The notes beneath the pieces are model-generated. The model made no database searches. It was not told the origin of the DNA and worked only from the letters and a program-made list of their open reading frames with translations. A stretch of DNA of 18,128 nt from Lachnospiraceae bacterium (lineage in GTDB: Bacteria; Bacillota_A; Clostridia; Lachnospirales; Lachnospiraceae). Both the position numbers and the translations under genes were made by a program. Below, in pieces: positions 318 to 15,647 of this stretch. Where the stretch lies: assembly GCA_017613055.1 (NCBI GenBank), contig JAGAES010000068.1, positions 1 to 18,128 on the forward strand. Direction: 5' to 3'. How positions within the stretch are numbered: the first letter of the stretch is position 1; the number at the start of each line of letters is the position of its first letter.

Positions 318-2510
318 ATGGGAGCGGAAGAACGCAGACAATATAAGGATTTTGCGGAGACGCTTAAGAACTCCGACCGCGAGCTTAACCGCATCGCGAC
401 CTCGGAGAATGCGCTTAAGAATTCCGTCCGCGAAGCGTACCGCGCCCTGCAGGAGAGTCTTGCCGTTGACCTTCTTAAAGATATGGACGTGGAGCAGCTC
501 AACATGAGCAGGGAAGGCATCCGCGTCAAAGCCTTCCGCGACGTCGGAATCCGTACCGTTGCGGACGTCTGCAAAGCAACGCAGCGGTCGTTAGAGTCCG
601 TTCCGGGAGTCGGCCCGGTAATGGCCGCCAAAGCGAAACGGAACGCGGACGCGCTCCGGATTTCGGCGGGCAGAACCATACGCGTTAAAGTGGATTATGA
701 GAATCCGAGTCCCGAAGCAAGGAGACTGGTCCGTGCCGTCGGCGTATTAAAACACGCGACGTACTATATGGAACGGGCAGGCCAGCTGTATGCCGCAAGC
801 CACGACGGAATCACCGTGCGGCTTGCCGTGTCCGAATGTCTCGGAAGCGGGCTTTCGTGGTTTTTCACTTCGGGGGAGAAACGGCAGCAGGCACAGCTTG
901 CTTACAGCGAATTGAAGGAATACCTCGCGGCGGAATATGCCGTCGCAGCCGCGGAAATCATCGACGGGTTCCGCGAGGCGTGCGGTTTTTTGGAAGCGCA
1001 GGCATGGAAGGAGTTCGGAAAGAATTCGGCCGCCTACTATGCGCTTCTGTATTCCGTCACGGAAGCCAGTACGGAAGCGGTTACCGATTACGGCGGAATC
1101 CCTTCGGAACTGGTGGAACAGGTCAATGCATATCCGCTCCGCACCGAAGGGCTTCAGGCGGAATTAAGACGTTATCAGGTGTTCGGCGCAAAGTACATCC
1201 TTGCGAGGGAGAGAGTGCTTCTCGGCGACGAGATGGGTCTCGGAAAAACCATCGAAGCGATTGCCGCAATCACGCATCTTCGGGCCGAAGGAAAGACGCA
1301 TTTTCTGGTTGTATGCCCTTTAAGCGTTTTGATGAACTGGCAGCACGAAGTCGCGCGGTTCTGTACGGTTCCCGTGGACGAAATCTACGGCTACGACCGG
1401 AGCGAAGAACTCGCGGACTGGCTTGCAAAGGGCGGCACGGCAATCACAACTTACGAAACCGCCTCGAAGATTGAGCTTCCGGACCGTTTTGCGATTGACC
1501 TTCTGGTCGTGGATGAAGCACAGTATATCAAGAACCCGGACGCGCAGCGCACGAAGGCGGTATGCAATCTTATAGCGCGCTCGCAGAGGGTTTTGCTGAT
1601 GACCGGAACGCCGCTTGAAAACCGCGTTTCGGAGATGGTCGGATTAATCGGTTTTCTGCAGCCGGAGGTGGCATCCCGCGTGAAGCGGTACACGTCCCTT
1701 TCGGAAGCGGAGCGGTTTCGTGAGGAAATCGCCCCGGTATACCTGCGGCGTACCCGCGAGCAGGTGCTCGGCGAACTCCCGGACAAGGAGGAGATCGCGG
1801 AGTGGGGAATCCTGATGGAAGACGAGACGGAAGCCTACCGGAAAGCGCTTGAAACGAACAATTTCATGGAAATCCGCCGCATCTCGTGGAACGTGCCCGA
1901 GACCGGTGCGTCAACGAAAGCGCGCCGTATGCTTGAACTCGTTGACGAAGCGGAAGCGGACGGGCGGAAGGTCATTGTCTTCTCGTTCTTCAAAGAGACG
2001 CTTAAGACCGTCGCGCTGATACTCGGAAACCGGTGCGCAGGCGTCATAGACGGTTCGCTCTCCATGCCGCAACGCGAAGCAATTCTTAAGGAATTCCGCG
2101 AACGCGGGGAGAAGACCGTGCTTGTCTGCCAGGTCATCGCCGGCGGCGTGGGCTTGAATATTCAGACGGCAAGTGTTATCATATTCTGTGAACCACAGTT
2201 AAAACCTTCCATGGAAGAACAGGCAATCGGCCGCGCCTACCGGATGGGCCAGAGCCGCAAGGTTCTCGTGCACCGTCTTCTGATGGCGGATTCCGTGGAT
2301 GAACGGATATTGGATATTCTTGCCGGCAAGCGGGAAGAATTCCTCGCATTTGCCGAGGAATCGGTTGTCGGAAAGATGGATGCAGAACAGGAAGTGACCG
2401 CTGCGGCCATGCAGCAGATTATCGAGGCGGAGAAGAAACGGTATCATGTCGAAGATGCCGCGGATGCCTCGCAATCGGAGGAGGAACACGATGAAGATCA
2501 GAAAGAGTAA
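318..2510 (+). CDS. SNF2-family helicase/ATPase with N-terminal helix-hairpin-helix domain
   Basis: A 730-residue cytoplasmic DNA-dependent ATPase of the SNF2 (Swi2/Snf2, superfamily 2) group, expected to translocate on duplex DNA and remodel protein-DNA complexes. Visible motifs: Walker A DEMGLGKT (304-311), motif II DEAQ (399-402), motif III LLMTGTPLEN (426-435), motif V QVIAGGVGLN (605-614) and motif VI EEQAIGRAYRMGQ (633-645). Before the motor, SVPGVGP at about 94-100 is a helix-hairpin-helix core, a sequence-independent DNA-binding unit; residues 120-275 match nothing I recognise. The tail (715-730) is acidic and Gln-rich. AAAGGA lies about nine bases before the ATG. The stop codon lies inside the next gene, so the two are probably co-transcribed. 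The family is certain; the cellular role (repair, RNA polymerase recycling or defence) cannot be told from this sequence. No nuclease or other defence gene sits beside it. Confidence 0.92.
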   Translation: MGAEERRQYKDFAETLKNSDRELNRIATSENALKNSVREAYRALQESLAVDLLKDMDVEQLNMSREGIRVKAFRDVGIRTVADVCKATQRSLESVPGVGPVMAAKAKRNADALRISAGRTIRVKVDYENPSPEARRLVRAVGVLKHATYYMERAGQLYAASHDGITVRLAVSECLGSGLSWFFTSGEKRQQAQLAYSELKEYLAAEYAVAAAEIIDGFREACGFLEAQAWKEFGKNSAAYYALLYSVTEASTEAVTDYGGIPSELVEQVNAYPLRTEGLQAELRRYQVFGAKYILARERVLLGDEMGLGKTIEAIAAITHLRAEGKTHFLVVCPLSVLMNWQHEVARFCTVPVDEIYGYDRSEELADWLAKGGTAITTYETASKIELPDRFAIDLLVVDEAQYIKNPDAQRTKAVCNLIARSQRVLLMTGTPLENRVSEMVGLIGFLQPEVASRVKRYTSLSEAERFREEIAPVYLRRTREQVLGELPDKEEIAEWGILMEDETEAYRKALETNNFMEIRRISWNVPETGASTKARRMLELVDEAEADGRKVIVFSFFKETLKTVALILGNRCAGVIDGSLSMPQREAILKEFRERGEKTVLVCQVIAGGVGLNIQTASVIIFCEPQLKPSMEEQAIGRAYRMGQSRKVLVHRLLMADSVDERILDILAGKREEFLAFAEESVVGKMDAEQEVTAAAMQQIIEAEKKRYHVEDAADASQSEEEHDEDQKE
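2477..2484 (+). promoter_or_regulatory. ribosome binding site of the lipoprotein protease gene
   Basis: GGAGGAGG lies six bases before ATG 2491, inside the end of the helicase gene. It decides the start. An ATG 45 bases further upstream, at 2446, has no such site and would bury the signal peptide behind a charged extension. Confidence 0.8.
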
Positions 2511-4047
2511 AACAATCGCTTTGCTTCTTGTGACGGTACTGATGGTTTCTTCCCTTTGCGGATGCGGAGGAAAGAAAGAGGAAGAAGAGGAGAAGGTTTT
2601 CGAAGTCCGTTTTGAACTGAACGGCGGAAGCCGCGTCTCCGGCAGCCTTCATCAGGAAGTGGAAGAAGGGAAATCCGCGAAGGAACCCGAAGTAGAGCGT
2701 GAGGGATACTTCTTCGACGGCTGGGATAAGGATTTCTCGGGCATCGAAAAGGATACGGTCGTTAAGGCGAAGTGGATTAAAGCGGTAAATGTCACATTTG
2801 ACGCGAACGGAGGCGAGATTACGCGCGGCGAAAGCACCGTCGTTATCGCATCCGGCAAGAAGCCGCAGGCACCGTCGGTGAGCAGGGAAGGATTTATCTT
2901 CAAGGGCTGGGACCGTGAGGTCGGCGAAGCCACCGAGGACACGACCTATGTGGCGCAGTGGGAGAGAGCCGTTCCGACGGCCGAAGAGGTGTATCAGTCG
3001 CTCGCCGTCAGCATGGTGGAGATTCGAACCTATGACGCGTACGGAGACCCGATCGGACTCGGTTCCGGTTTCTTCATCGATACGAACGGAAAGCTGCTTA
3101 CAAACTTCCACGTTATGGAAGGCGCGTCCACTGCAGAGATTTATCTGTATGACGAAGAGAACGCGAGAACCTATCACGCGACCGAGATCGAAGGCTATGA
3201 TAAGGATATCGATCTGTGCGTCGTGCAGACGGACGTAAGAAATACAACGCCGGTCACGCTCTTCACGGGCAATGTGAAAACCGGTGAGACGATATATACG
3301 CTCGGCAGTTCCAAAGGACTGACCGGCACATTCTCCGACGGAATCGTTTCGAAGGCGTCCCGCCTCAGTGACGGTGTTGAGTGCATCCAGATTACGGCGC
3401 CGATTTCGCCCGGCAACAGCGGCGGTCCGCTTGTGAACGAGTACGGCGAAGTGCTCGGCGTGAATACCTTCCAGTACGTGGAAGGACAGAACCTGAATTT
3501 CGCCGTATCGATTAAGGAACTCGATAATATCGACCGTTCGGAGACGATCACGATTGCACAGTTCGGAGCGCTTACCGGCGATTCCGTGAAACCGAGCGTC
3601 ACGATTGTGGAAACCGGCGACGAGGGTGAATACGTATACAGCATGACCAACGACATCGAGCTGGAGCCGAACGATACGATTGACGATTCGGATCCGCTCA
3701 CGGACGGATACTGGAAAGCCGCATATCTTGCTGACGGAGAGGTGGATATGTTCTACTTCTATATTCCGGAGCCGGCTACCATCACCGTCTATCTGTTAAG
3801 CTACTGGACAGATGATGACCAATATCTGTATGCATATCTGAGGGATGATTACGGCGATGTGCTTCCGGATTCCGCTACCGGACGGAGCGCCTATATCGGC
3901 ATGGATGACTATGACGAAGAAGAAAGCTGCAAGATTGCGACCTTCCGGATCCCCGAGGCCGGCTACTATATCCTCGATACCCACATCCCGAATGACTATC
4001 CGTTCGCAAACGGATGCTATTATCTGGTCGGCTACGAAACTAATTAG
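2491..4047 (+). CDS. lipid-anchored HtrA-like serine protease with InlB-type repeats and PPC-like C-terminus
   Basis: A 518-residue predicted lipoprotein on the outer face of the cell membrane. Residues 1-24 are a signal peptide ending in lipobox L22-C23-G24-C25, so C25 is the likely lipidated residue. After an E/K-rich stretch come two InlB B-repeats (about 37-95 and 98-157), each with an ELNGG or DANGG turn and a GW near the end. A trypsin-fold HtrA/DegP-type domain follows (about 168-348): GSGFFID, H207 in NFHV, D241 in DIDLCVV and S310 in PGNSGGP form the expected triad. There is no PDZ domain. Instead the C-terminal part (about 385-518) starts with EPNDTIDDSDPL and resembles bacterial pre-peptidase C-terminal (PPC) domains. 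The gene overlaps the helicase gene by 20 bp and is closed by a strong terminator. A role in processing or quality control of exported proteins is inferred from the family. Confidence 0.9.
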   Translation: MKIRKSKTIALLLVTVLMVSSLCGCGGKKEEEEEKVFEVRFELNGGSRVSGSLHQEVEEGKSAKEPEVEREGYFFDGWDKDFSGIEKDTVVKAKWIKAVNVTFDANGGEITRGESTVVIASGKKPQAPSVSREGFIFKGWDREVGEATEDTTYVAQWERAVPTAEEVYQSLAVSMVEIRTYDAYGDPIGLGSGFFIDTNGKLLTNFHVMEGASTAEIYLYDEENARTYHATEIEGYDKDIDLCVVQTDVRNTTPVTLFTGNVKTGETIYTLGSSKGLTGTFSDGIVSKASRLSDGVECIQITAPISPGNSGGPLVNEYGEVLGVNTFQYVEGQNLNFAVSIKELDNIDRSETITIAQFGALTGDSVKPSVTIVETGDEGEYVYSMTNDIELEPNDTIDDSDPLTDGYWKAAYLADGEVDMFYFYIPEPATITVYLLSYWTDDDQYLYAYLRDDYGDVLPDSATGRSAYIGMDDYDEEESCKIATFRIPEAGYYILDTHIPNDYPFANGCYYLVGYETN

Positions 4048-4274: not shown

Positions 4275-4320
4275 GTAGATTGACGAAAAATGCATTGGCG
4301 AAGCCAGGAACACCATAGCA

Positions 4321-4329
4321 GAGGAGGGG
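4321..4329 (+). promoter_or_regulatory. ribosome binding site of citrate synthase
   Basis: GAGGAGGGG ends eight bases before ATG 4338 and decides that start over an in-frame ATG at 4290. The latter would lie nine bases from the predicted transcript start and has no ribosome site. Confidence 0.75.
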
Positions 4330-4337
4330 CAACAACT

Positions 4338-5708
4338 ATGGCGAAACGTGTGAATTATTCGGATATCACGGATGATATCCGCCGGCTGACGGAAATCTGC
4401 CGGGACAACAGCAACATCGATCCGGAACTCTATAACCGTTACGAAGTGAAAAGGGGACTTCGTGACCTGAACGGCAAGGGCGTGCTTGCCGGTCTTACCG
4501 AGATTTCCGAGATCCGCACGCTCAAGATTGAAGACGGCGTGGAAAAGCAATGCCCGGGCAAACTGTTCTACCGCGGCATTAATGTCGAAGATATTGTGAA
4601 GGGCTGCGTCGCCGAGAACCGGTTCGGTTTCGAGGAAACCGTATACCTTCTGCTGTTCGGCAAGCTTCCGACCCGCGAACAGCTTACCGAATTCACGAAC
4701 CTGCTCGGTTATTACCGCACCCTTCCGAGCAGCTTTGTAAGAGACGTAATCTTAAAGAAGCCGAGCGCCAACATGATGAACGGGCTCGCAAGAAGCGTAC
4801 TGACGCTTTATTCGTATGATACGAACCCGGAGGACACGTCCCTAGAGAACGTGCTCCGGCAGTGTATCCAGCTGATTTCCATCTTCCCGATGCTTACGGT
4901 GTACAGCTACCATGCACACCGTTACTATTACATGGATGAGGCACTCGTAATCCACCGTCCGCGGACCGACCTTTCCGCGGCCGAGAACATACTGCATCTG
5001 CTTCGCGCCGACAGTCAGTACAGCGAACTCGAGGCAAGAGTTCTCGATATCGCGCTGATTCTTCACGCGGAGCACGGCGGCGGTAACAACTCGACCTTTA
5101 CAACGCATGTCGTCACCTCTTCCGGGACGGATACCTATGCTGCCATGACCGCGGCGCTTGGATCGTTAAAGGGACCGAAGCACGGCGGTGCGAACATGAA
5201 GGTTGTGGAGATGTTCGCCGAGATGAAAGAGAAGGTTTCCGACTGGACCGATGAGGCGGAAGTGGCAAAGTACCTGCGCGCGCTTCTTCACAAGGAGGCG
5301 TTTGACCGGGCGGGTCTCATCTACGGTATGGGCCATGCCATTTATTCCGTATCCGATCCGCGTGCGGTAATGTTCCGCGGCTTCGTCGAGAAGCTTTCCG
5401 AGGAGAAGGGCATGCACAGGGAATTTGCCCTTTATAAGATGGTTGAGGAGCTTGCGCCGAAGGTTATTGCCGAAGAACGCAGGATGTATAAGGGTGTCAG
5501 CGCCAACGTGGACTTCTACAGCGGTTTTGCTTACCAGATGCTCGGTCTTCCCGAAGAACTCTACACCCCGATCTTCGCGGTGGCAAGAGTGGCGGGCTGG
5601 AGCGCGCACCGCATGGAAGAGCTGATTAACGCCGGCAAGATTATCCGTCCGGCTTACAAGAGCGTGTGTGACGAGCGGGATTATGTCCCGATCGCAGAAA
5701 GAGGTTGA
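4338..5708 (+). CDS. gltA: citrate synthase (citrate/2-methylcitrate synthase family)
   Basis: A 456-residue cytoplasmic enzyme that condenses oxaloacetate with acetyl-CoA to citrate, the entry step of the TCA branch that supplies 2-oxoglutarate and glutamate in anaerobes. The catalytic residues are present: H246 in LHAEHGGGNN, H282 in GPKHGGAN and D392 in NVDFYSG. GMGHAIYSVSDPRA (330-343) is the conserved helix-loop near the oxaloacetate site, and RVAGWSAHRMEE (417-428) is the C-terminal signature. An N-terminal stretch of about 45 residues precedes the usual start of the fold, as in the longer clostridial forms. Use with propionyl-CoA cannot be excluded, but no prp gene is adjacent. It is monocistronic by its own promoter and terminator. 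Codon use is strongly biased to C-ending codons (AAC, ATC, TAC), suggesting high expression. Confidence 0.95.
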   Translation: MAKRVNYSDITDDIRRLTEICRDNSNIDPELYNRYEVKRGLRDLNGKGVLAGLTEISEIRTLKIEDGVEKQCPGKLFYRGINVEDIVKGCVAENRFGFEETVYLLLFGKLPTREQLTEFTNLLGYYRTLPSSFVRDVILKKPSANMMNGLARSVLTLYSYDTNPEDTSLENVLRQCIQLISIFPMLTVYSYHAHRYYYMDEALVIHRPRTDLSAAENILHLLRADSQYSELEARVLDIALILHAEHGGGNNSTFTTHVVTSSGTDTYAAMTAALGSLKGPKHGGANMKVVEMFAEMKEKVSDWTDEAEVAKYLRALLHKEAFDRAGLIYGMGHAIYSVSDPRAVMFRGFVEKLSEEKGMHREFALYKMVEELAPKVIAEERRMYKGVSANVDFYSGFAYQMLGLPEELYTPIFAVARVAGWSAHRMEELINAGKIIRPAYKSVCDERDYVPIAERG

Positions 5709-5716
5709 AACCGAAG

Positions 5717-5761
5717 AGGCAGAAAGGATTGCCCTGCCTTTTGTGCGGGCGGTCTGTTTTT
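5717..5761 (+). terminator. probable terminator after citrate synthase
   Basis: Two overlapping hairpins are possible. AGGCAG (5717-5722) can pair with CTGCCT (5734-5739). ATTGCCC (5728-5734) can pair with GGGCGGT (5747-5753, two G-U pairs), followed three bases later by TTTTT (5757-5761). The second is the better terminator. The rest of the 120-bp gap to the next gene holds no promoter I can support. Confidence 0.5.
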
Positions 5762-5828
5762 GTGTCCGTCTGTATGGGCTTAAATTCCGCAGGAATGATC
5801 CTGTGAAGATAAATGGGAGGAATTACAA

Positions 5829-8117
5829 ATGAGAACGTGGAAGAAAATGTTTGCGGTATGTGCCGCGGCAATTATGGCGCTTTCGACCGTCGGGATTATG
5901 CCGGCGAAAGCTTCCGGGAAGGCAATTGATTTTGATTTGCGAAGCGGGTACCGGCTGCTTGAGTACACGGAGCCTTTATCTGACTGGCTTCAGACAATGG
6001 AAATACAATCCGAGGAAAGCGATTATGACAGCACCCTGTTTGACCTTGACGGCGACGGGGCATTTGACATTGCAATCAGTATGTGGGTTCCTTCGGATTA
6101 CACGTATCGTTATGTTCTGACGCCGGTCCCCGGAGGAAACATTCACGGAGACTTCACATTGGAATCCGATGAAGAACACAGAATTTTAAGCTTTTTCGGA
6201 TACAGTGACGACGGAGAAATGATTTCGGAAGAAGTGTCGAAACTTGTGTTTCATTTTCCGAACGAACCGGTCCGCGAGACGTATTCCGTAAAGGTTAACG
6301 GCGGCAAAGCATTCCGCGGTTACTGGAATGAAAACGACGAATGGACGGAAGAGGAAGTTGACTCTGCCGCACCCGGAGAGTCCATCCGCTTTGAAGAAGA
6401 GAAGAAGACCGGGCAGTATCTGAAGGAGTGGAATTCCCAGGGTATTTCGAAAGGCATGACATCCAGTGAAGGACATGCCGTGAGAAGATTTGTCATGCCG
6501 GCGCACGACGTTTCGATGACCCCCGTTTACGGGAATCAGACGCCTTATACGTTAGAAGCGGGGAAAACCGAACTGATCGGAAGCGGATGGCAGCCGGTAA
6601 CCCCCGTTGATTGTTTTTTGAATTCTCTGAGTAATTCTCCGTTCTACAAAGGAACAGACGGTTTCTTTGATGTGGACGGAGACGGAACGGATGACTTGTT
6701 CCTCGGACCGCATAAAAGTCAGGAAGACTGTTCCGCATGTCTGTTTTCCAATCTGGATTCCGTTACGCTGACGGCACCGAACGACGGACCGTATTGGCCG
6801 GTCACGCTGAAATGGAATAAAGAAGCCATGTACGTTATTGACATGTCAAACTTCTTCTATTACGCGTGGCTTTCGCCGAAAGGGAGTGAGCTTCTGTATA
6901 AATCCCTGAAGACATATGAACTTCCGGACAAAACCGGTTTCTTTGACCTCGACCGGGACGGATCCGAAGACATGTATTTCAACGGGTATGATATCAAGGC
7001 TCTTCCGACCTGCAGCATAAACGGTTCGGTTACGATTCCCGCAGATGAGGACGGTGTAAATCATCCGGTGACATTTACCGTTGATACGATCCCTGAAAGC
7101 AGCGCATTTTATAAAGTCAGCCTGGTCTATGAGAACGAACCGAAGGCTCATATCTATCATTCCAGTTATCCACGCTTCGGAGAATGGTTTGAACAGGGAG
7201 ATTATGTTTCCGTGACTCCGGAACCCGGCTATCAGTTCGCCGAAGTAAAGATAGACGGTAATCCGTATCCGTTAGATTCCTATGATATGGAATACGGCTT
7301 CGGGTTTGAAGTTCAGGACCATGATACGGAAGTGAGCGTTCTTTTAAGAAACGAGTCCGGCGGGATTACCGGATACCATACCGTGACGGTGGAAGGAGAT
7401 TACAGTATACCGTTTAAGCTGGACGGCAGCGATTATGAATCTCTGCTTTCCGATGCTTATGTCAAGGAGGGAGACTGGGTTATTATACTCCGAAACGACC
7501 GGACGGCCGATAACTATGTTTCTTCCTGGGAGGTTACCGGAACAGACCGGTATGAAATCGGCGTGAATGTATCGCTAAGATTGCAGATGCAGGATCAGGA
7601 CGTATATGTAAAGCCTGTGTTCGGCAAGGTGGAACCTCTCACGATTGACCTTACGGGCGGGAATTATACCGTCACGGAGGAAATGATCGAAGAGATCGTT
7701 TCGGCGCTTGGGGCCGGGGAGTTCGGCGCGTCTGAGACGGTCCGCAAATTTGATCTGAACGACGACGGAAAGCTTGATGTCCGAATTGACGTACGGGCTT
7801 TGGAAATCACGCCGCTTGATACCTACAGCTGCGGGGATGCTTATACACTCTCCGAGTGGTACAACAAATCCGGACGCTACCATCCGATTAAATTCGTTTA
7901 CAATGCGAACGGCGAAAAGCCGACAGAGGAGAAGAAGGATCCTTCGAAGAAAGCTTCTTCGAAGAAATCGAAGAAGGATTCCGGGTCCTTTAACCCGCTT
8001 TATGTGCTGATTCCCGCAGAAGTGCTTTTCATTGCCGCACTGACGGGCTTGATTATATGGCGCCGGAAGAGAAAGAAGAAGCCGGCTGAGAACGGGGGAG
8101 AACAGAATGAAGCTTAG
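5829..8117 (+). CDS. modular cell-surface protein with FDLDGDG modules and InlB-type repeats, C-terminal membrane anchor
   Basis: A 762-residue exported protein of unknown function. It has a signal peptide (about 1-29, AKA-S cleavage region), a C-terminal membrane helix (about 724-744), a short basic tail (RRKRKKK), and a Lys/Ser-rich linker (697-718), so it is a type I membrane protein facing outward. The outside part alternates two modules. Module A ends its first half in an Asp-rich loop: FDLDGDG at 71-77, FDVDGDG at 280-286, FDLDRDG at 372-378 and FDLNDDG at 641-647, probably Ca-binding, and finishes with a YxPVTF-like strand. Module B (about 151-236, 427-507 and 516-599) resembles divergent InlB B-repeats, with PGE or EGD turns and, in the first copy, FVMPAHDV. 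The order is A-B-A-A-B-B-A. GGGAGGA precedes the ATG. It overlaps the paralogous next gene by 11 bp. Binding to a glycan, protein or neighbouring cell is a guess from the architecture. Confidence 0.85.
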   Translation: MRTWKKMFAVCAAAIMALSTVGIMPAKASGKAIDFDLRSGYRLLEYTEPLSDWLQTMEIQSEESDYDSTLFDLDGDGAFDIAISMWVPSDYTYRYVLTPVPGGNIHGDFTLESDEEHRILSFFGYSDDGEMISEEVSKLVFHFPNEPVRETYSVKVNGGKAFRGYWNENDEWTEEEVDSAAPGESIRFEEEKKTGQYLKEWNSQGISKGMTSSEGHAVRRFVMPAHDVSMTPVYGNQTPYTLEAGKTELIGSGWQPVTPVDCFLNSLSNSPFYKGTDGFFDVDGDGTDDLFLGPHKSQEDCSACLFSNLDSVTLTAPNDGPYWPVTLKWNKEAMYVIDMSNFFYYAWLSPKGSELLYKSLKTYELPDKTGFFDLDRDGSEDMYFNGYDIKALPTCSINGSVTIPADEDGVNHPVTFTVDTIPESSAFYKVSLVYENEPKAHIYHSSYPRFGEWFEQGDYVSVTPEPGYQFAEVKIDGNPYPLDSYDMEYGFGFEVQDHDTEVSVLLRNESGGITGYHTVTVEGDYSIPFKLDGSDYESLLSDAYVKEGDWVIILRNDRTADNYVSSWEVTGTDRYEIGVNVSLRLQMQDQDVYVKPVFGKVEPLTIDLTGGNYTVTEEMIEEIVSALGAGEFGASETVRKFDLNDDGKLDVRIDVRALEITPLDTYSCGDAYTLSEWYNKSGRYHPIKFVYNANGEKPTEEKKDPSKKASSKKSKKDSGSFNPLYVLIPAEVLFIAALTGLIIWRRKRKKKPAENGGEQNEA

Positions 8118-10167
8118 GAAAATGATATCGTTTCTGTTGATGCTATGCGTTATGTTTGCATGCGCCGGGACGGTATATGCGGGAGAAGCAGCGTCTGCGT
8201 CGGATGGCGAAGTGCTTGAGATTGACCTTACGAAAGGCTATTACGAATGCACCCTCTATAGCAAAGACGGGGATTATCCCTATTACAATAACCTTGAACT
8301 GCAGGCAGTCTGTGACTCGGTCTACCACGCCGCATGCCCGGACGCAGGTACCGGGATAAACTTTGAGTATACTGCCGACCTTGATCACGACGGCACCATA
8401 GACCTGATTTCGGGGGCATACGGATACCCGATGGAAGAAGGAATGCCGTCCGTTTATTACCTGATTCCCGCCGCTACCGCCAGCGTGTGCGGGGCCTGTG
8501 AGATACCGCTCCCGCTTGGTTCGTACTCCCGCGGGGATTACACTTCGGTCCGGAATTACACGACGGTTCGGTTTTACTTCCCGGAGGAACCGGTTCAAAA
8601 GGAATATAGTATTACCGTTGAAAGCGGCCATGCCGAGACGAAGGACGGGAAGACCGTTACTTCGGCTGCGCCGGGAACCCTTTTATATCTTGTTCCGGAT
8701 GCGCTTTCAGGCGAATTTGTCGCCGCGTGGGATTCGGAACTGCTTCATACGTTCAGCCGCTTTGAAAACTACGGGAATTACTGGAACAGCTGCGCGGAGT
8801 TCACGATGCCTGCGGCGGATGTCACATTTGCCGCAGAGAAGGGAAAACAGACACCGCTTACGTTTGATTTAACCCCCGGCTTCTGCCTCGGTGAGCAGGG
8901 TGCATGGGAAGCCCCCGGCCTTTACGATATCATGCCGGAAAGCGCAAACCGCGAGGAGAGGCGATTCGATCTGGACGGTGACGGAACGGATGACGTCTGC
9001 TACTATCCGCTCACCCTGTTGGAGATTGAGGGACCGAACCCGTGTGATGACTATATTGATCATACTTATGTGATTCCTCTTGCAACGAGCTCTATACGCG
9101 GTTCCTATACGCTTGAGGGGAAGAGCACTTCCGCATACTGGCCGCTGACCTTTAAATTCCCGGACGAGCCGCTTAAACAGTTTTATTCGGTTACCGTTAC
9201 CGGCGGACATGCCGAGGACTACACGGGCCGTACCATTAACGTAGCGACGCCCGGCGATTGGATTAGAATCGTCTATGATGAGAAGGAAGGCGTAATCTTC
9301 GAACAGGAGTTCATGACGTTTCCGGAGTACGAAAATCTGAATTCCCCGTGGCATATGCGCGAGAATGTTGTGATGCCGGCGTGCGATATTGAGTATATCG
9401 CGCTGACGCATGCTCCGGGCAAGGAACAGGAAGAAGAGAAGTATCCGATTACCGTGATTAACGGGGGTGCGGGCCAACAGTTTTATGAGCCGATTACCGA
9501 GGCTTATCCCGGAGAATGGATTATCGTATACCCGTTCGCCGGTCCGAGAGACGACGGCTATTACTATACCGGCAACTGGTCTTCCGATGATGTGGACCTG
9601 AATGACTATAAAGAGGGTGCGATGACACTGATCATGCCGGATCATGCGGTTACGGTTACGGCGGAAATTAAGAAGCAGGAGCCGGTTACGGTGGATCTCC
9701 GTTCCGGTTCGGCGAAGGTTACTTGGGATATAGCCGCCTGCCTGATGGACGCGAGCGGATCCGATAAGATCTTCTTCGATTTGAACGGGGACCGGACGGA
9801 TGACGTGATTATCGACTTCGATAATGGGATTATCAAAGTGCTTCCCAACTGCACCTGCACGGAGCCCATCGAACTGACCGGAAGAACGGAGGGACCTTAC
9901 TATCCGGTTACGGTGCTTTTCGACGAGAATACCCCGAAGACCGTGCAGCCCACGGTGACCGAAGAGGTAAAGCCTACCGAAACGGTGCAGGCACCGGATA
10001 CGGCAAATGAGAAAGAGAAGGAGAAGAAGGCGCGCGATTCCTTCAACCTTTTCTATATATTCATTCCTGCAATACTTGTGCTCGGAGGAATTGTAACGGC
10101 ATGGGTGCTTCTTTCGAAAAGAGCAAAGAAGTCCTCTGCAGAGAGTGAAGAAAACAGCATAACGTAA
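8107..10167 (+). CDS. second modular cell-surface protein, paralogue of the preceding gene
   Basis: A 686-residue exported protein built on the same plan. It has a signal peptide (1 to about 25, TVYA region), an outside part, a linker rich in P/T/E/K (610-641) and a membrane helix (about 648-670) followed by KRAKK. Module A loops are [11 protein letters not shown] (90-100), [11 protein letters not shown] (287-297) and [11 protein letters not shown] (557-567, with R replacing the usual G at its last loop position). Each is followed by an IP or LP turn, a T/SIxG motif and a YWPLTF or YYPVTV strand. Module B copies lie at about 167-243, 359-433 and 446-520, with [18 protein letters not shown] and [10 protein letters not shown] strands, as in divergent InlB repeats. 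The order is A-B-A-B-B-A. GGGGGAG lies before the ATG, which overlaps the end of the upstream gene, suggesting coupled translation. It may act as a partner of its paralogue. The function is unknown. Confidence 0.85.
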
Positions 10168-10168
10168 G

Positions 10169-10174
10169 AGGAGG
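10169..10174 (+). promoter_or_regulatory. ribosome binding site for a GTG start
   Basis: AGGAGG ends nine bases before GTG 10184. It supports the non-ATG start of the arabinofuranosidase, because no ATG lies in frame at the expected N-terminus. Confidence 0.7.
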
Positions 10175-10183
10175 ATAGGAATT

Positions 10184-11665
10184 GTGATTTCGAAGAAACT
10201 GCGTATTGAGACGGCGAAGAAAGGTGCAACGATCCATAAGGAAATCTACGGGCATTTTTCGGAGCATCTCGGAAGATGCATCTACAACGGCATCTATGTC
10301 GGCGAGGATTCCGATATTCCGAACACGAACGGCATGCGGAACGATGTCGTCGAAGCGCTAAAGGACATGGGAATTCCCGTGTTGCGCTGGCCGGGCGGCT
10401 GCTTCGCCGATGAGTATCACTGGATGAACGGCATCGGCCCGAAGGAGAGCCGTGTCAAGATGATCAACACGAACTGGGGCGGCGTAACTGAGGACAACAG
10501 CTTCGGTACCCACGAGTTCATGGATCTGTGCGACCAGATCGGCTGCGAGCCGTACATCAGCGGCAACGTCGGAAGCGGCACCGTGCGTGAGATGTCCGAG
10601 TGGATTGAGTACATGACAAGCGACAACGTATCCCCGATGACCGACCTTCGTAAGAAGAACGGCCGCGAGAAGCCGTGGCATCTGAAGTACCTCGGTATCG
10701 GAAATGAAAACTGGGGCTGCGGCGGATTCATGACGCCCGAATACTACGCAAACCAGTACCGCCAGTTCCAGCAGTTCTGCAAGAACTACGGCGACAACAG
10801 GCTCTATAAGGTTGCGTGCGGTCCGAACGGCGGCGATACCGCATGGACCGACAAACTGATGTCGATGCTGAATCCGATGATTGCAAGCGCCATCAGCCTG
10901 CATTTCTATACGGTTCCGACCGGACGCTGGGAGGACAAAGGACCGGCAACCGGCTTTACGGAGAAGCTCTATCATGAGACTATCCGCGAGACGCAGAAGA
11001 TGGAGCCGATTATCCGGGACCATCTGGCCGTAATGGACCGTTACGATCCGGACCACAAGATCGGCCTTGCCGTTGACGAATGGGGCTGCTGGTATAACGT
11101 TGAGGAAGGCACCAATCCGGGATTTCTGTATCAGCAGAACACAATCCGCGATGCGATTGTCGCCTCGATTAACCTGAACATCTTCAACCGCCACGCGGAC
11201 CGCATCGTGATGGCGAACATTGCGCAGGTCGTAAACGTGCTGCAGTCCGTTGTCCTGACCGAGGGAACGAAGATGCTGAAGACACCGACCTACTATGTAT
11301 TCAAGATGTACAAGCCGCATCAGGACGCAACGCTTGTCGAGTCCGTTCTGGATGACACGACGGCGGATCACGACGGCATTTCCTACGCGGACGTATCCGC
11401 TTCGGCTTCCGTTAAGGATGACACGCTCTTCGTTACGTTAAGTAACGCAAATCCGAACGAAACTTATACGGTTTCCGCGGATATCGACGAAGCCTACGGC
11501 ACTTACGAAGCACGCATTCTGAGCGGTGCGATGGGAGATTATAACACATTTGACGCACCGGATCAGGTCTTCGATAAGGCTTATGACGGCGTGAAACTCA
11601 CCGGCAGCAGCGCGGAAATCGTACTGCCTCCGTGCAGCGTTGTGACGGTCTCCTTTAAGAAGTGA
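10184..11665 (+). CDS. alpha-L-arabinofuranosidase, glycoside hydrolase family 51
   Basis: A 493-residue enzyme of GH51 that removes terminal alpha-L-arabinofuranosyl units from arabinan, arabinoxylan or arabino-oligosaccharides, with retention of configuration. E175 in [11 protein letters not shown] is the expected acid/base and E299 in AVDEWGCWY the nucleophile. [13 protein letters not shown] (68-80) and [17 protein letters not shown] (22-38) are family signatures. The (beta/alpha)8 barrel is followed by the C-terminal beta domain (about 385-493). There is no signal peptide, so it acts in the cytoplasm on imported oligosaccharides. It starts with GTG after a good ribosome site, 16 bases beyond the second surface-protein gene, and its TGA overlaps the next ATG. 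No sugar importer or arabinose-catabolism gene is beside it. Codon use is more strongly C-ending than in the two surface-protein genes. Confidence 0.95.
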
Positions 11666-11919
11666 TGGATACTTTGAAAATTCCCTGCAGACGCTGTCTT
11701 TTCGAGGGCGTCGACCGGGAACAGGTTGTGAAAATGATTGAAACTTATCTGGAGGCGCTTCCCGACGGGGAGCGCACTCCGGATGCGCTTTATCAGGAAC
11801 GCCTCGCCGTATGCGAGACGTGTCCGAACCTCTCGAACGGACTGTGCAGTCTGTGCGGCTGCTTCGTCCTCTACCGGGCAGGAAAGACCGCCTCAGGTTG
11901 TCCGGGCGGCAAATGGTAA
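11665..11919 (+). CDS. small cysteine-rich protein, DUF6171-like
   Basis: An 84-residue protein with eight cysteines in pairs: C8-x2-C11, C50-x2-C53, C61-x2-C64-x-C66 and C79. The second half reads like a zinc-ribbon or small metal-binding fold (CETCPNL, CSLCGCFV, CPGGKW). It resembles the small Lachnospiraceae proteins filed as DUF6171, which I recall but cannot confirm here. There is no signal peptide. The ATG overlaps the arabinofuranosidase stop as TGATG, so translation is probably coupled; a GTG three bases earlier is an alternative start. There is no strong ribosome site of its own. The function is unknown; metal or Fe-S binding is inferred from the Cys spacing alone. Confidence 0.8.
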   Translation: MDTLKIPCRRCLFEGVDREQVVKMIETYLEALPDGERTPDALYQERLAVCETCPNLSNGLCSLCGCFVLYRAGKTASGCPGGKW

Positions 11920-11949
11920 CGCTTTTATGACGGAAAGGGTGATTCCTTT

Positions 11950-12567
11950 ATGCTTGAAGCAAACGGTTTAATGAAACAATACGGCAAATCCGAGGTCCTT
12001 GAGGGGCTTTCCCTCACACTGAATCCGGGCGAGGGCGTGGCGCTTCTCGGGCAGAACGGAAGCGGTAAGACCACGCTTCTTAAGATACTTGCGGGCGTTT
12101 TGGAGCCGGACGCCGGAGAAGTGACGGTTGACGGGCTTACGGGCAAGGAGGCGAAAGAGAAGGTTTCCTACGCTCCGCAGGATATCGTTCTTTTCGAAGA
12201 ACTGACCGTTACGGAGAATCTGTATTCCTGGTCCTCTTTAAAGGGAGAAGAGAATGCCGCGCGTGCGGAATACCTGATCCGTGCGCTTCAGATGGAAGCG
12301 TTCCGGAAGAAGCGTGTCGACCGCCTCTCGGGCGGACAGAGAAGACGCGTCAATCTGGCTGTTGCTTTAATGGGCAGCTATTCGTATCTGCTGCTTGACG
12401 AACCGCTTGCAGGCGTTGATGCGCAGGGCGGCGAATGCATTGCCGCACTGTTACGGGAGGAGAAGGAAAAAGGAACTGCTATGATTATTTCCGAGCACAA
12501 TCCGACGATTCTGATGCCGCTTATGGACCGTGCTTTAAGACTTGACGGAGGTCATTTTGCTCAATGA
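11950..12567 (+). CDS. ABC transporter ATP-binding protein
   Basis: A 205-residue cytoplasmic nucleotide-binding subunit. Walker A GQNGSGKT (34-41), Q-loop APQ (75-77), signature LSGGQ (126-130), Walker B LLLDE (147-151) and the H-loop histidine H183 in SEHN are all present, so it should hydrolyse ATP. It is short, with no C-terminal regulatory extension. It lies 30 bases after the Cys-rich gene and overlaps the first permease gene by four bases (ATGA). One ATPase with two different permeases suggests a homodimer serving a permease heterodimer. The substrate cannot be read from the sequence. An export or drug/lipid-type ABC-2 role is likelier than sugar import, as there is no binding-protein gene. 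Confidence 0.93.
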   Translation: MLEANGLMKQYGKSEVLEGLSLTLNPGEGVALLGQNGSGKTTLLKILAGVLEPDAGEVTVDGLTGKEAKEKVSYAPQDIVLFEELTVTENLYSWSSLKGEENAARAEYLIRALQMEAFRKKRVDRLSGGQRRRVNLAVALMGSYSYLLLDEPLAGVDAQGGECIAALLREEKEKGTAMIISEHNPTILMPLMDRALRLDGGHFAQ

Positions 12568-13778: not shown

Positions 13779-14895
13779 TCTTGCCGTGATGAAAGGAAGA
13801 GCAAGGGCGCTTTTTTCGGATTTCTGGTCGCTCGGAATCATCGTGATTGCGATTGCCGTATGCATTTACATAGCGTGCTATAACGGCGGGAATACGGAGA
13901 AACGCATCCGGATCGGCGCGGTCAATCAAGACGCCGGAACGTACGGCGCGCACTTCCTTGAACTGCTTTCCGGGGAAGAATACGAGATCTTCGTGACCGA
14001 CCGCGACACAGCCGCTCATGAGATTGCGGTGAACAGGGCGCAGGGCATGATTGAGCTTCCGGAAGATTTCTCGGAGAGAATTCTTAAGGGCGATTATCCG
14101 TCGTTAGTCAAGGTCACCGTCATGGCGGACTCCTACGACATGACATTTTTCACCGAAATTGTAATTAACAACGTCGTCAAGGTGATGACGGAAGCATTGA
14201 CGGAAGAGAAAATGCAGAGCGCGGGCGGTTTTGACGAATCGTTCCGAAGCGAATTCCGCGAGGTGGCGAACGGCGTGTGGAAAGGCGAACCGCTTCTTGA
14301 CATCGAAACCTTCGCCGTCGGAGAGGACGAGGACAGCGGTGACGTAGATTATTACGGAATCCGCTGGTATGCGGTCTTCACGATGTTTTATCTGATTATC
14401 AGCGGAACGTGGATGTGCGATTACACCTCGACCGGGCTGCTCCGAAGGGTAGTGAGCCGCGGCGGAAGAATCTCTTCGCTGTTCGTCGTGCAGATGCTCC
14501 CGGGTCTTTTGGTGAATATTCTCGGCTTCATTCCGGTGCTTTGTGTTTCGAAGCATCCTGCAGCCGTTTCCGTATTCGTTTCGTTCGTACTTTATGCCTG
14601 CGGCACGGCGGCGCTTTCGCTTGTAGTCTGCTCGCTGTCCCGCAAATTCGTGAATCTGATTCTTTCGGCATCGGTGTTCACGATGGCGGCATCGCTCTTC
14701 TCGGGCCTTGTCTGCGACCTGCCGGACTGGGCCGCAATCTGGGATATGGTATCCGTATTCCTTCCGGGGCATTGGTATTTTGCGTCGGTTTGCGAAAAAC
14801 CGTTCCTCTTTGGTGCGGTAATCGTGCTGATTTTCTGGTTTGTTGCCGGAGTTTTCACGTCGTGGTATTTCGGAGTTAAGAGGGGCAGGGAATGA
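13771..14895 (+). CDS. ABC-2-type permease, second of two
   Basis: A 374-residue membrane protein with the same plan as its neighbour: an N-terminal helix (about 18-37), an outside domain (about 38-195) and helices at about 199-216, 235-258, 265-288, 294-314 and 345-366. The outside part starts with RIRIGAVNQDAG, resembling the IGVVNED(D) segment that opens many ABC-2 exporter outside domains. QGMIELPEDFSERI (91-104) matches the 'G.i.iP.dFs' pattern of that group. It overlaps the first permease gene by eight bases and the next gene by four (ATGA). It should pair with the first permease; the substrate is unknown. Confidence 0.85.
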   Translation: MNNLAVMKGRARALFSDFWSLGIIVIAIAVCIYIACYNGGNTEKRIRIGAVNQDAGTYGAHFLELLSGEEYEIFVTDRDTAAHEIAVNRAQGMIELPEDFSERILKGDYPSLVKVTVMADSYDMTFFTEIVINNVVKVMTEALTEEKMQSAGGFDESFRSEFREVANGVWKGEPLLDIETFAVGEDEDSGDVDYYGIRWYAVFTMFYLIISGTWMCDYTSTGLLRRVVSRGGRISSLFVVQMLPGLLVNILGFIPVLCVSKHPAAVSVFVSFVLYACGTAALSLVVCSLSRKFVNLILSASVFTMAASLFSGLVCDLPDWAAIWDMVSVFLPGHWYFASVCEKPFLFGAVIVLIFWFVAGVFTSWYFGVKRGRE

Positions 14896-15647
14896 GAAAA
14901 ACTTTGTTCACGGAAAGAAAATGGGAAACGGTATTTCTGCTGATTGAAGAGGCGGCAATCGCCTGTGTGATTGCATACTATCTTTTTGTTGCCGACCGGC
15001 CGGACCATGCGTTTAAGTTTTTCATCACGATGTTCGTTGTCATGATTCCGCTTATACTCGGACTGCTTCTGTCCGCGAGGGCCCTGCTTCCGGTCTACTG
15101 TTTTGCGGCTGTTTATGCGTCCGGGCATACGGTTGCCAGCTGTTTCGGCTTCTACCTGACCTGCCCGTGGTGGGATAAGGGAATGCATTTTGCAGAGGGC
15201 TTCCTGATTACGATGGTTGCGTACTACGTTCTTCAGCATACGTTCAAGGGCACCGCCGGAAGGAGGGCAGCGATCCTGGCAGCAGCAGTCTCATTTTCCG
15301 TGCTGATTGCAGTCCTTTGGGAGACTGCCGAGTTCACGGCCGACCGGTTCTTTGTGCTCGACATGCAAAAGGACGCGTATGTGACGCACATAGATTCGTA
15401 CCTTCTCGGCGGGAATACCGGCGACATCGAAACAATCGGTAAGATTGAATCGGTTACGGTAAATGGGAAGGAACTCCCGGGGTATATCGACGTCGGCCTT
15501 ACGGATACGATGTATGACCTGATTACGTCGTTAGGGGGCTCGCTATTGTTCCTCCTTTACGCGCTTTTTGACCGCGACCGGCATCCGCTTATAAGGTTTT
15601 TGAAGAGTTCGGAGACGGAGGAGAAAGGGTTTGACGGGGAAGCTTAG
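14892..15647 (+). CDS. DUF2238-like multi-pass membrane protein
   Basis: A 251-residue integral membrane protein with about six to seven helices (around 14-33, 43-61, 65-87, 102-117, 126-143 and 210-226). Conserved polar groups lie near membrane ends: WWDKGMHFAEGF (93-104), WETAEF with D151 (143-151), MQ (158-159) and GLTDTMYDL (202-210). This pattern of D/H, E/E and DTMxD residues is what I recall for DUF2238 (YjdF-type) proteins, whose function is not established. The charged residues suggest a metal- or lipid-headgroup site. It overlaps the second permease gene as ATGA, so it is probably made with the transporter. No terminator follows it. Confidence 0.75.
   Translation: MRKTLFTERKWETVFLLIEEAAIACVIAYYLFVADRPDHAFKFFITMFVVMIPLILGLLLSARALLPVYCFAAVYASGHTVASCFGFYLTCPWWDKGMHFAEGFLITMVAYYVLQHTFKGTAGRRAAILAAAVSFSVLIAVLWETAEFTADRFFVLDMQKDAYVTHIDSYLLGGNTGDIETIGKIESVTVNGKELPGYIDVGLTDTMYDLITSLGGSLLFLLYALFDRDRHPLIRFLKSSETEEKGFDGEA

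Follow-up and report, generated by a model that had tools for sequence, protein, structure and literature searches.

Predicted surface proteins of a Lachnospiraceae genus built from a repeated calcium-type-loop domain that looks new

Calcium-type loops recur in many protein settings. The survey by Rigden and co-workers gives 16 structural contexts for the Dx[DN]xDG motif and stresses multiple convergent evolution (PMC3123361); therefore, the motif predicts Ca2+ binding and not family membership. Among surface proteins, a fibrillar-adhesin survey terms Flg_new a stalk domain and remarks that stalk domains cannot always be told apart clearly from adhesive ones (PMC9210967), and another report proposes a hydrophobic groove beside strand 2 of the InlB B repeat as a ligand-binding site (PMC8900821). 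Here, two adjacent genes, A and B, were analyzed in an 18,128-nucleotide stretch of a Lachnospiraceae genome (contig JAGAES010000068.1 of assembly GCA_017613055.1, hereafter the window). Their products combine a repeated loop-bearing unit (D unit) with intervening repeats (b units), and in our judgment they are probably calcium-stiffened, recombining, membrane-anchored surface stalk or adhesin proteins.

A preliminary description of the window had proposed seven repeats in the two proteins. The seven units were cut near its boundaries, aligned, and built into a profile, which found four D units in the gene A protein (residues 30-144, 237-330, 332-419, and 601-692) and three in the gene B protein (residues 34-159, 248-352, and 524-606). 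The iterated profile, with a consensus of 94 positions, recovered the identical seven units, the first one ending at residue 125. When each unit was scored against a profile built from the other six, the scores were 20.7, 28.6, 35.3, 33.0, 21.3, 50.7, and 28.4 bits, and none of 1000 composition shuffles per unit matched the real score (best shuffle, 10.6 bits). The top score of 825 shuffled whole proteins against the iterated profile was 8.6 bits. When all six frames of the window were scanned, in open stretches of at least 60 codons, exactly seven units were returned. The seven repeats were thus confirmed, with lengths as cut of 84-126 residues where roughly 90-130 had been estimated.

D units were also detected in all 24 proteins from the first homologue search, one of which (P0003) was 98% identical to the gene B protein. 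Altogether, 219 units were found in the 66 proteins profiled, near-copies counted. The architecture counts exclude 98 of 116 new proteins in which no D unit was found at E<=1 (among the matches listed, the best 120 of 503), as well as P0087, which has a D unit and is close to P0086.

In 148 non-redundant units from the 66 proteins, the loop comprises nine residues, D-x-[DN]-x-[DN]-G-x-x-D, and its length is constant across the alignment. Conservation reached 99% for D1, about 100% for D/N3, 98% for D/N5, 88% for G6, and 99% for D9, and the relaxed loop pattern was matched by 142 of the units. The segment between strand 1 and the loop is the most variable part, with 16-55 residues and a mean entropy of 3.62 bits vs 1.38 in the loop. 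Position 12 is chiefly hydrophobic (I 21%, F 21%, L 15%, Y 7%, V 6%). Its spacing equals that of FG-GAP or calcium-blade loops and places it in this type; pattern and structure model together make it probable that every D unit binds a single Ca2+.

A single D unit (gene A residues 330-422) was predicted to form a compact strand-loop-strand fold with a helix preceding the loop (pLDDT 85.5, pTM 0.77), and no significant match to this model was found in the PDB. In a Pfam scan of the seven window units, none reached a cutoff; five listed nothing, and two listed EF-hand_5 with 13.7 and 11.8 bits (cutoff 25.9). The preliminary description had counted a confident hit of single units to a named domain, or units that do not fold independently, as evidence against itself, and both results left it standing. 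Its statement that the module could not be named holds for the unit as a whole and not for the loop: the summed loop scores for FG-GAP_3 reached the cutoff of 26.9 in three of ten whole relatives (26.9, 29.2, and 27.1), and so it is just the domain surrounding the loop that lacks a name. Pfam contains no model for the D unit itself; the domain looks new, and the kind of protein is known.

These FG-GAP_3 scores raise the alternative that D units are blades of an FG-GAP beta-propeller split by insertions. The loop spacing and the following strand do match the repeats of integrin and CRTAC1, and the source database lists PF13517 for 3/24 and 5/25 relatives. However, no single stretch passed FG-GAP_3 in the ten relatives, the best stretches being 13-38 residues round a loop, and the whole gene A and gene B proteins scored only 21.3 and 11.4. 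Moreover, b units lie between most of the D units, at most two of which are adjacent, so that the closure of a propeller is not seen, and the single unit is predicted to fold alone, with a helix of its own. We therefore regard split blades as very improbable, in agreement with the earlier statement that the repeats fit neither a dockerin nor a seven-bladed propeller.

A second profile, built from the stretches between D units, recovered b units at E<=1e-3 in both proteins, which bears out the earlier remark on interleaving with InlB-type repeats. The b units appear to be of the divergent InlB B-repeat type. The gene B protein scored 22.5 bits for Flg_new_2 (PF18998; cutoff 23.6), which was not listed for gene A. 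Among relatives, one scan placed six of nine above the cutoff, at 34.6-61.0 bits (the remaining three gave 19.9, 17.6, and none), and another placed none of ten above it (best 23.2). The commonest unit orders were D-b-D-D-b-D, D-b-D-b-b-D, and b-D-b-D-b-D-b(-D). Linkers were short: of 159 b-to-D pairs, 140 were joined by 2-3 residues, and of 148 D-to-b pairs, 92 were joined by 4-7 residues; another 18 of the 148 D-to-b gaps were at least 91 residues long and probably conceal an unrecognized domain.

Both window proteins are predicted from their sequences to be exported and membrane-anchored by a C-terminal helix, and no LPXTG was present in either sequence when read through. The "dedicated surface structure" suggested earlier therefore stands as far as predicted export and anchoring go; the structure itself is something we infer. 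In the arrangement that we favor, the outer part of a single-pass exported protein would be a chain of small domains, with divergent InlB B-repeats interspersed among the D units. A Ca2+ ion bound outside the cell by each D unit would lock its strand-loop-strand core, and the short linkers would turn the chain into a stiff stalk. The variable segment between strand 1 and the loop, as the likely recognition surface, or the b units may contact a ligand. The tandem family would gain, lose, and exchange units, mostly at one chromosomal site. Of this picture, the units, the loop conservation, the architecture, the arrays with their mosaicism, and the site are observed, while export, the anchor, and the single-unit fold are predicted; calcium binding, a rod shape, and a role in adhesion or capture are inferred.

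Several observations weigh against this interpretation. The relaxed loop pattern was missed by six of the 148 D units, and in the last D unit of gene B the loop glycine is lost (R at position 6), so that the FDLDGDGxxD loop ascribed to every unit is a fixed loop with one deviating copy in the window. The iterated b profile (E<=1e-3) missed the beta domain at gene A residues 427-508, an extra domain ahead of the last b unit that is visible in the structure model only. The full-length model of the gene A protein had a mean pLDDT of 77.5 and a pTM of 0.57; therefore, its domain folds are usable and its overall shape is not, which bears on the proposed rod. Several array members have no hydrophobic helix in the last 70 residues, and in P0014, the one of these examined beyond that stretch, such a helix sits further upstream. 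Finally, no adhesive or carbohydrate-binding domain was found in the window proteins with Pfam and NCBIfam.

The two adjacent copies noted in the preliminary description are indeed present as a pair, and they proved to be one case of a tandem recombining family with up to eight genes per contig. One related locus (L001) has five D genes in a row, one of them clipped at the locus edge, plus a truncated copy. This remnant lies within the array at L001:9103-9483, with one in-frame stop reported in its unit. Another locus (L006) carries six D genes, the sixth past arabinofuranosidase and DJ-1 genes, and contig C6 of genome G002 carries eight, from about 79.7 to 106 kb, where core genes stand among them. 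Seven of the eight related loci come from Lachnospiraceae or Lachnoclostridium, and three of the genomes were obtained from the rumen or omasum of buffalo or goat. The eighth locus (Oscillospiraceae) matches one b unit, and its genome has no D unit.

D units occurred in 6 of 22 genomes examined from the genus (41, 30, 20, 17, 9, and 2 units), in 1 of 299 genomes of a family-level sample, namely the sample centre itself, and in 3 of 291 genomes of a class-level sample, centre included. The two non-centre genomes of the latter had one D unit each (34.8 and 32.4 bits): that of G119 lies in a protein with SLH domains at its end, and that of G089 does not show the canonical loop. Two SLH-domain proteins outside the family sample carry D units (P0086 and that of G119, locus L010). 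Since the D profile was derived from this genus and limited candidates were scored per genome, distant members may be missed. Long proteins with b-D pairs were also seen in L011 (from position 1141) and in P0086, which has SLH domains, with repeats starting like 'YPVWVGNTQVTS'; the D unit of L011 has no canonical loop.

In D-bearing species, the D genes occupy the interval between the citrate synthase and arabinofuranosidase genes; some lie outside it, for example past HtrA and SNF2 genes (G002), past DJ-1 (G003), or on other contigs. The same locus was inspected in 8 of the 16 D-free congeners, and neither D nor b units turned up in the eight stretches. Seven of them had both border genes within one 19.9-kb stretch, with a gap between aligned ends of about 340-430 nt in five and of 1.7 and 5.1 kb in two; in the eighth, no citrate synthase gene was seen in the stretch.

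Comparison of paralogues indicated how the arrays may have diversified. P0029 was closest to P0028 from D1 to b2 (91-96%) and closest to P0031 in b3 (96%) and D4 (89%), and for its D1 no sequence except that of P0028 exceeded 45%. P0004, which was 89% identical to the gene B protein in alignment, has one extra b unit and is 78 residues longer. These sequence relations point to paralogues that are mosaic at unit boundaries, with unit-wise gain, loss, and exchange. Unit turnover at the array site fits surface adhesins under diversifying pressure, as expected. The arrays might instead serve chiefly to vary the cell surface, as a defence against phages or host immunity, for example, and adhesion would then be secondary. 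Mosaic paralogues, the truncated copy, and the patchy presence in 6/22 congeners with 2 to 41 units would suit such a system, but the mosaicism also fits ordinary gene conversion, and we consider this alternative improbable. A wider proposal is that D units form a new domain family with their own fold, which would add an undescribed structural context for the Dx[DN]xDG loop, and that one Lachnospiraceae genus has, in the arrays that separate citrate synthase from arabinofuranosidase, a recombining locus dedicated to its surface repertoire; we put it forward tentatively, its two parts together falling somewhat short of an even chance.

The coordinates of the genes and units are given in Table 1. 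The start codon of gene B overlaps the end of gene A and is preceded by a purine-rich stretch, and the GTG start of the arabinofuranosidase gene lies 16 nt past the gene B stop, behind gaggagg. Plus-strand terminator-like sites in 5650-11950, which are consensus matches only, sit ahead of gene A or within it. Because of the overlap, the short gap, and the position of these sites, genes A and B and the arabinofuranosidase gene are likely on one transcript. The enzyme scored 168.5 bits for Alpha-L-AF_C (cutoff 27) and 212.9 for an NCBIfam match, below the cutoff of 625 for the latter. We take it to be a GH51 enzyme.

Table 1. Positions in the window of genes A and B, their units, and the border genes
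Feature	Position	Strand	Basis or remark
Citrate synthase, left border of array interval	4290..5708	+	
Gene A, 762-aa surface protein	5829..8117	+	D-b-D-D-b-D by profiles
Gene A signal peptide	5829..5915	+	predicted, hydrophobic N-terminus
D unit A1	5919..6203, reaching about 6266	+	profile; calcium loop D72-D80
b unit, gene A residues 151-234	6279..6530	+	profile, divergent InlB B-repeat type
D unit A2	6537..6818	+	profile; calcium loop D281-D289
D unit A3	6825..7085	+	profile; calcium loop D373-D381; residues 330-422 used as single-unit fold query
Beta domain, gene A residues 427-508	7107..7352	+	b seed; strands in model
b unit, gene A residues 516-598	7374..7622	+	profile
D unit A4	7632..7904	+	profile; calcium loop D642-D650
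Gene A membrane helix, residues 730-748, then basic tail RRKRKKK	8016..8072	+	predicted; no LPXTG
Gene B, 686-aa surface protein	8107..10167	+	D-b-D-b-b-D by profiles
Gene B signal peptide	8107..8181	+	predicted
D unit B1	8209..8583	+	profile; calcium loop D91-D99
b unit, gene B residues 166-244	8602..8838	+	profile
D unit B2	8848..9162	+	profile; calcium loop D288-D296
b unit, gene B residues 359-434	9181..9408	+	profile
b unit, gene B residues 445-521	9439..9669	+	profile; Pfam Flg_new_2 22.5 bits for gene B, below cutoff of 23.6
D unit B3	9676..9924	+	profile; calcium loop D558-D566, loop position 6 R, not G
Gene B membrane helix and basic tail	10048..10113	+	hydropathy; no LPXTG
Alpha-L-arabinofuranosidase, right border of array interval	10184..11665	+	Pfam Alpha-L-AF_C

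The gene order suggests another function, fibre capture, in which D or b units would bind plant cell-wall polysaccharide such as arabinan or arabinoxylan and cooperate with the downstream arabinofuranosidase. Besides the 16-nt gap and the terminator-like sites found only before or inside gene A, an orthologue of the enzyme (81-92% identical) stands beside D genes in five of the six D-bearing congeners, in one of them cut by the contig end. One paper (PMC10076258), only suggestive, reports dextran- and pectin-selected clones resembling Prevotella proteins that contain an InlB B-repeat among other domains. However, the sixth D-bearing congener, G602 (2 units), has just a 32% identical paralogue, and the enzyme is genus-wide, being found in 20 of 22 congeners at E<=1e-80, D-free ones included. 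Since it is present with or without D genes, the link is one of chromosomal position. Its orientation relative to the D genes also differs between species: it opposes them in G003 and G590 (loci L026 and L023), unlike in the window, G001, G002, and G592. No carbohydrate-binding family reached its cutoff in the proteins scanned. Fibre capture is thus unlikely in our view, and the stalk or adhesin interpretation is retained.

Three further features of the window were recorded. An HtrA-type trypsin-like protease gene (2446-4047) encodes two Flg_new (List_Bact) repeats ahead of the protease domain and adjoins a gene for an SNF2 helicase, as it also does in congeners G002, G590, G592, and G597. A predicted protein of 251 aa (14892-15647), downstream of ABC-2 exporter genes, matched nothing in Pfam or NCBIfam at the thresholds applied. 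A 205-aa open reading frame on the minus strand (62-679) overlaps opposite-strand tRNA-His and tRNA-Gln genes and is probably spurious.

The interpretation given in the preliminary description is partly supported. As long as Pfam lacks a model for the D domain, the arrays remain "hypothetical," and naming it would annotate a major surface feature of a genus several members of which live in the rumen or omasum. A name would also provide a well-defined case in which to study how the Dx[DN]xDG loop enters new folds, and with arrays and empty-site congeners side by side, the birth, shuffling, and loss of surface proteins would become traceable.

EF-hands and dockerins require an acidic residue at loop position 12, followed by a helix. 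The D-unit loop resembles the EF-hand and the type I dockerin in its DxDxDG core, but its position 12 is hydrophobic rather than acidic, and in the D-unit model the loop (44-52) is followed by a predicted strand (E53-55) and no helix. An EF-hand or dockerin identity was ruled out on these two grounds. The FG-GAP/calcium blade (PF01839, PF13517; integrin alpha, CRTAC1) likewise has a loop of nine residues, Dx[DN]xDGxxD, that is flanked by two strands and repeated within extracellular proteins, whereas the D loop lies in a separate domain of 84-126 residues with a preceding helix and with other domains interleaved. For the b units, the closest known family is Flg_new_2 (PF18998), and the D and b profiles are unrelated (probability 0.4%). 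Compared with the Gram-positive fibrillar adhesins as outlined in the survey (PMC9210967), the window proteins share the predicted signal peptide, the chain of repeated domains, and the predicted C-terminal anchor, but they have a predicted membrane helix instead of LPXTG and no recognized adhesive domain, and they belong to arrays of paralogues.

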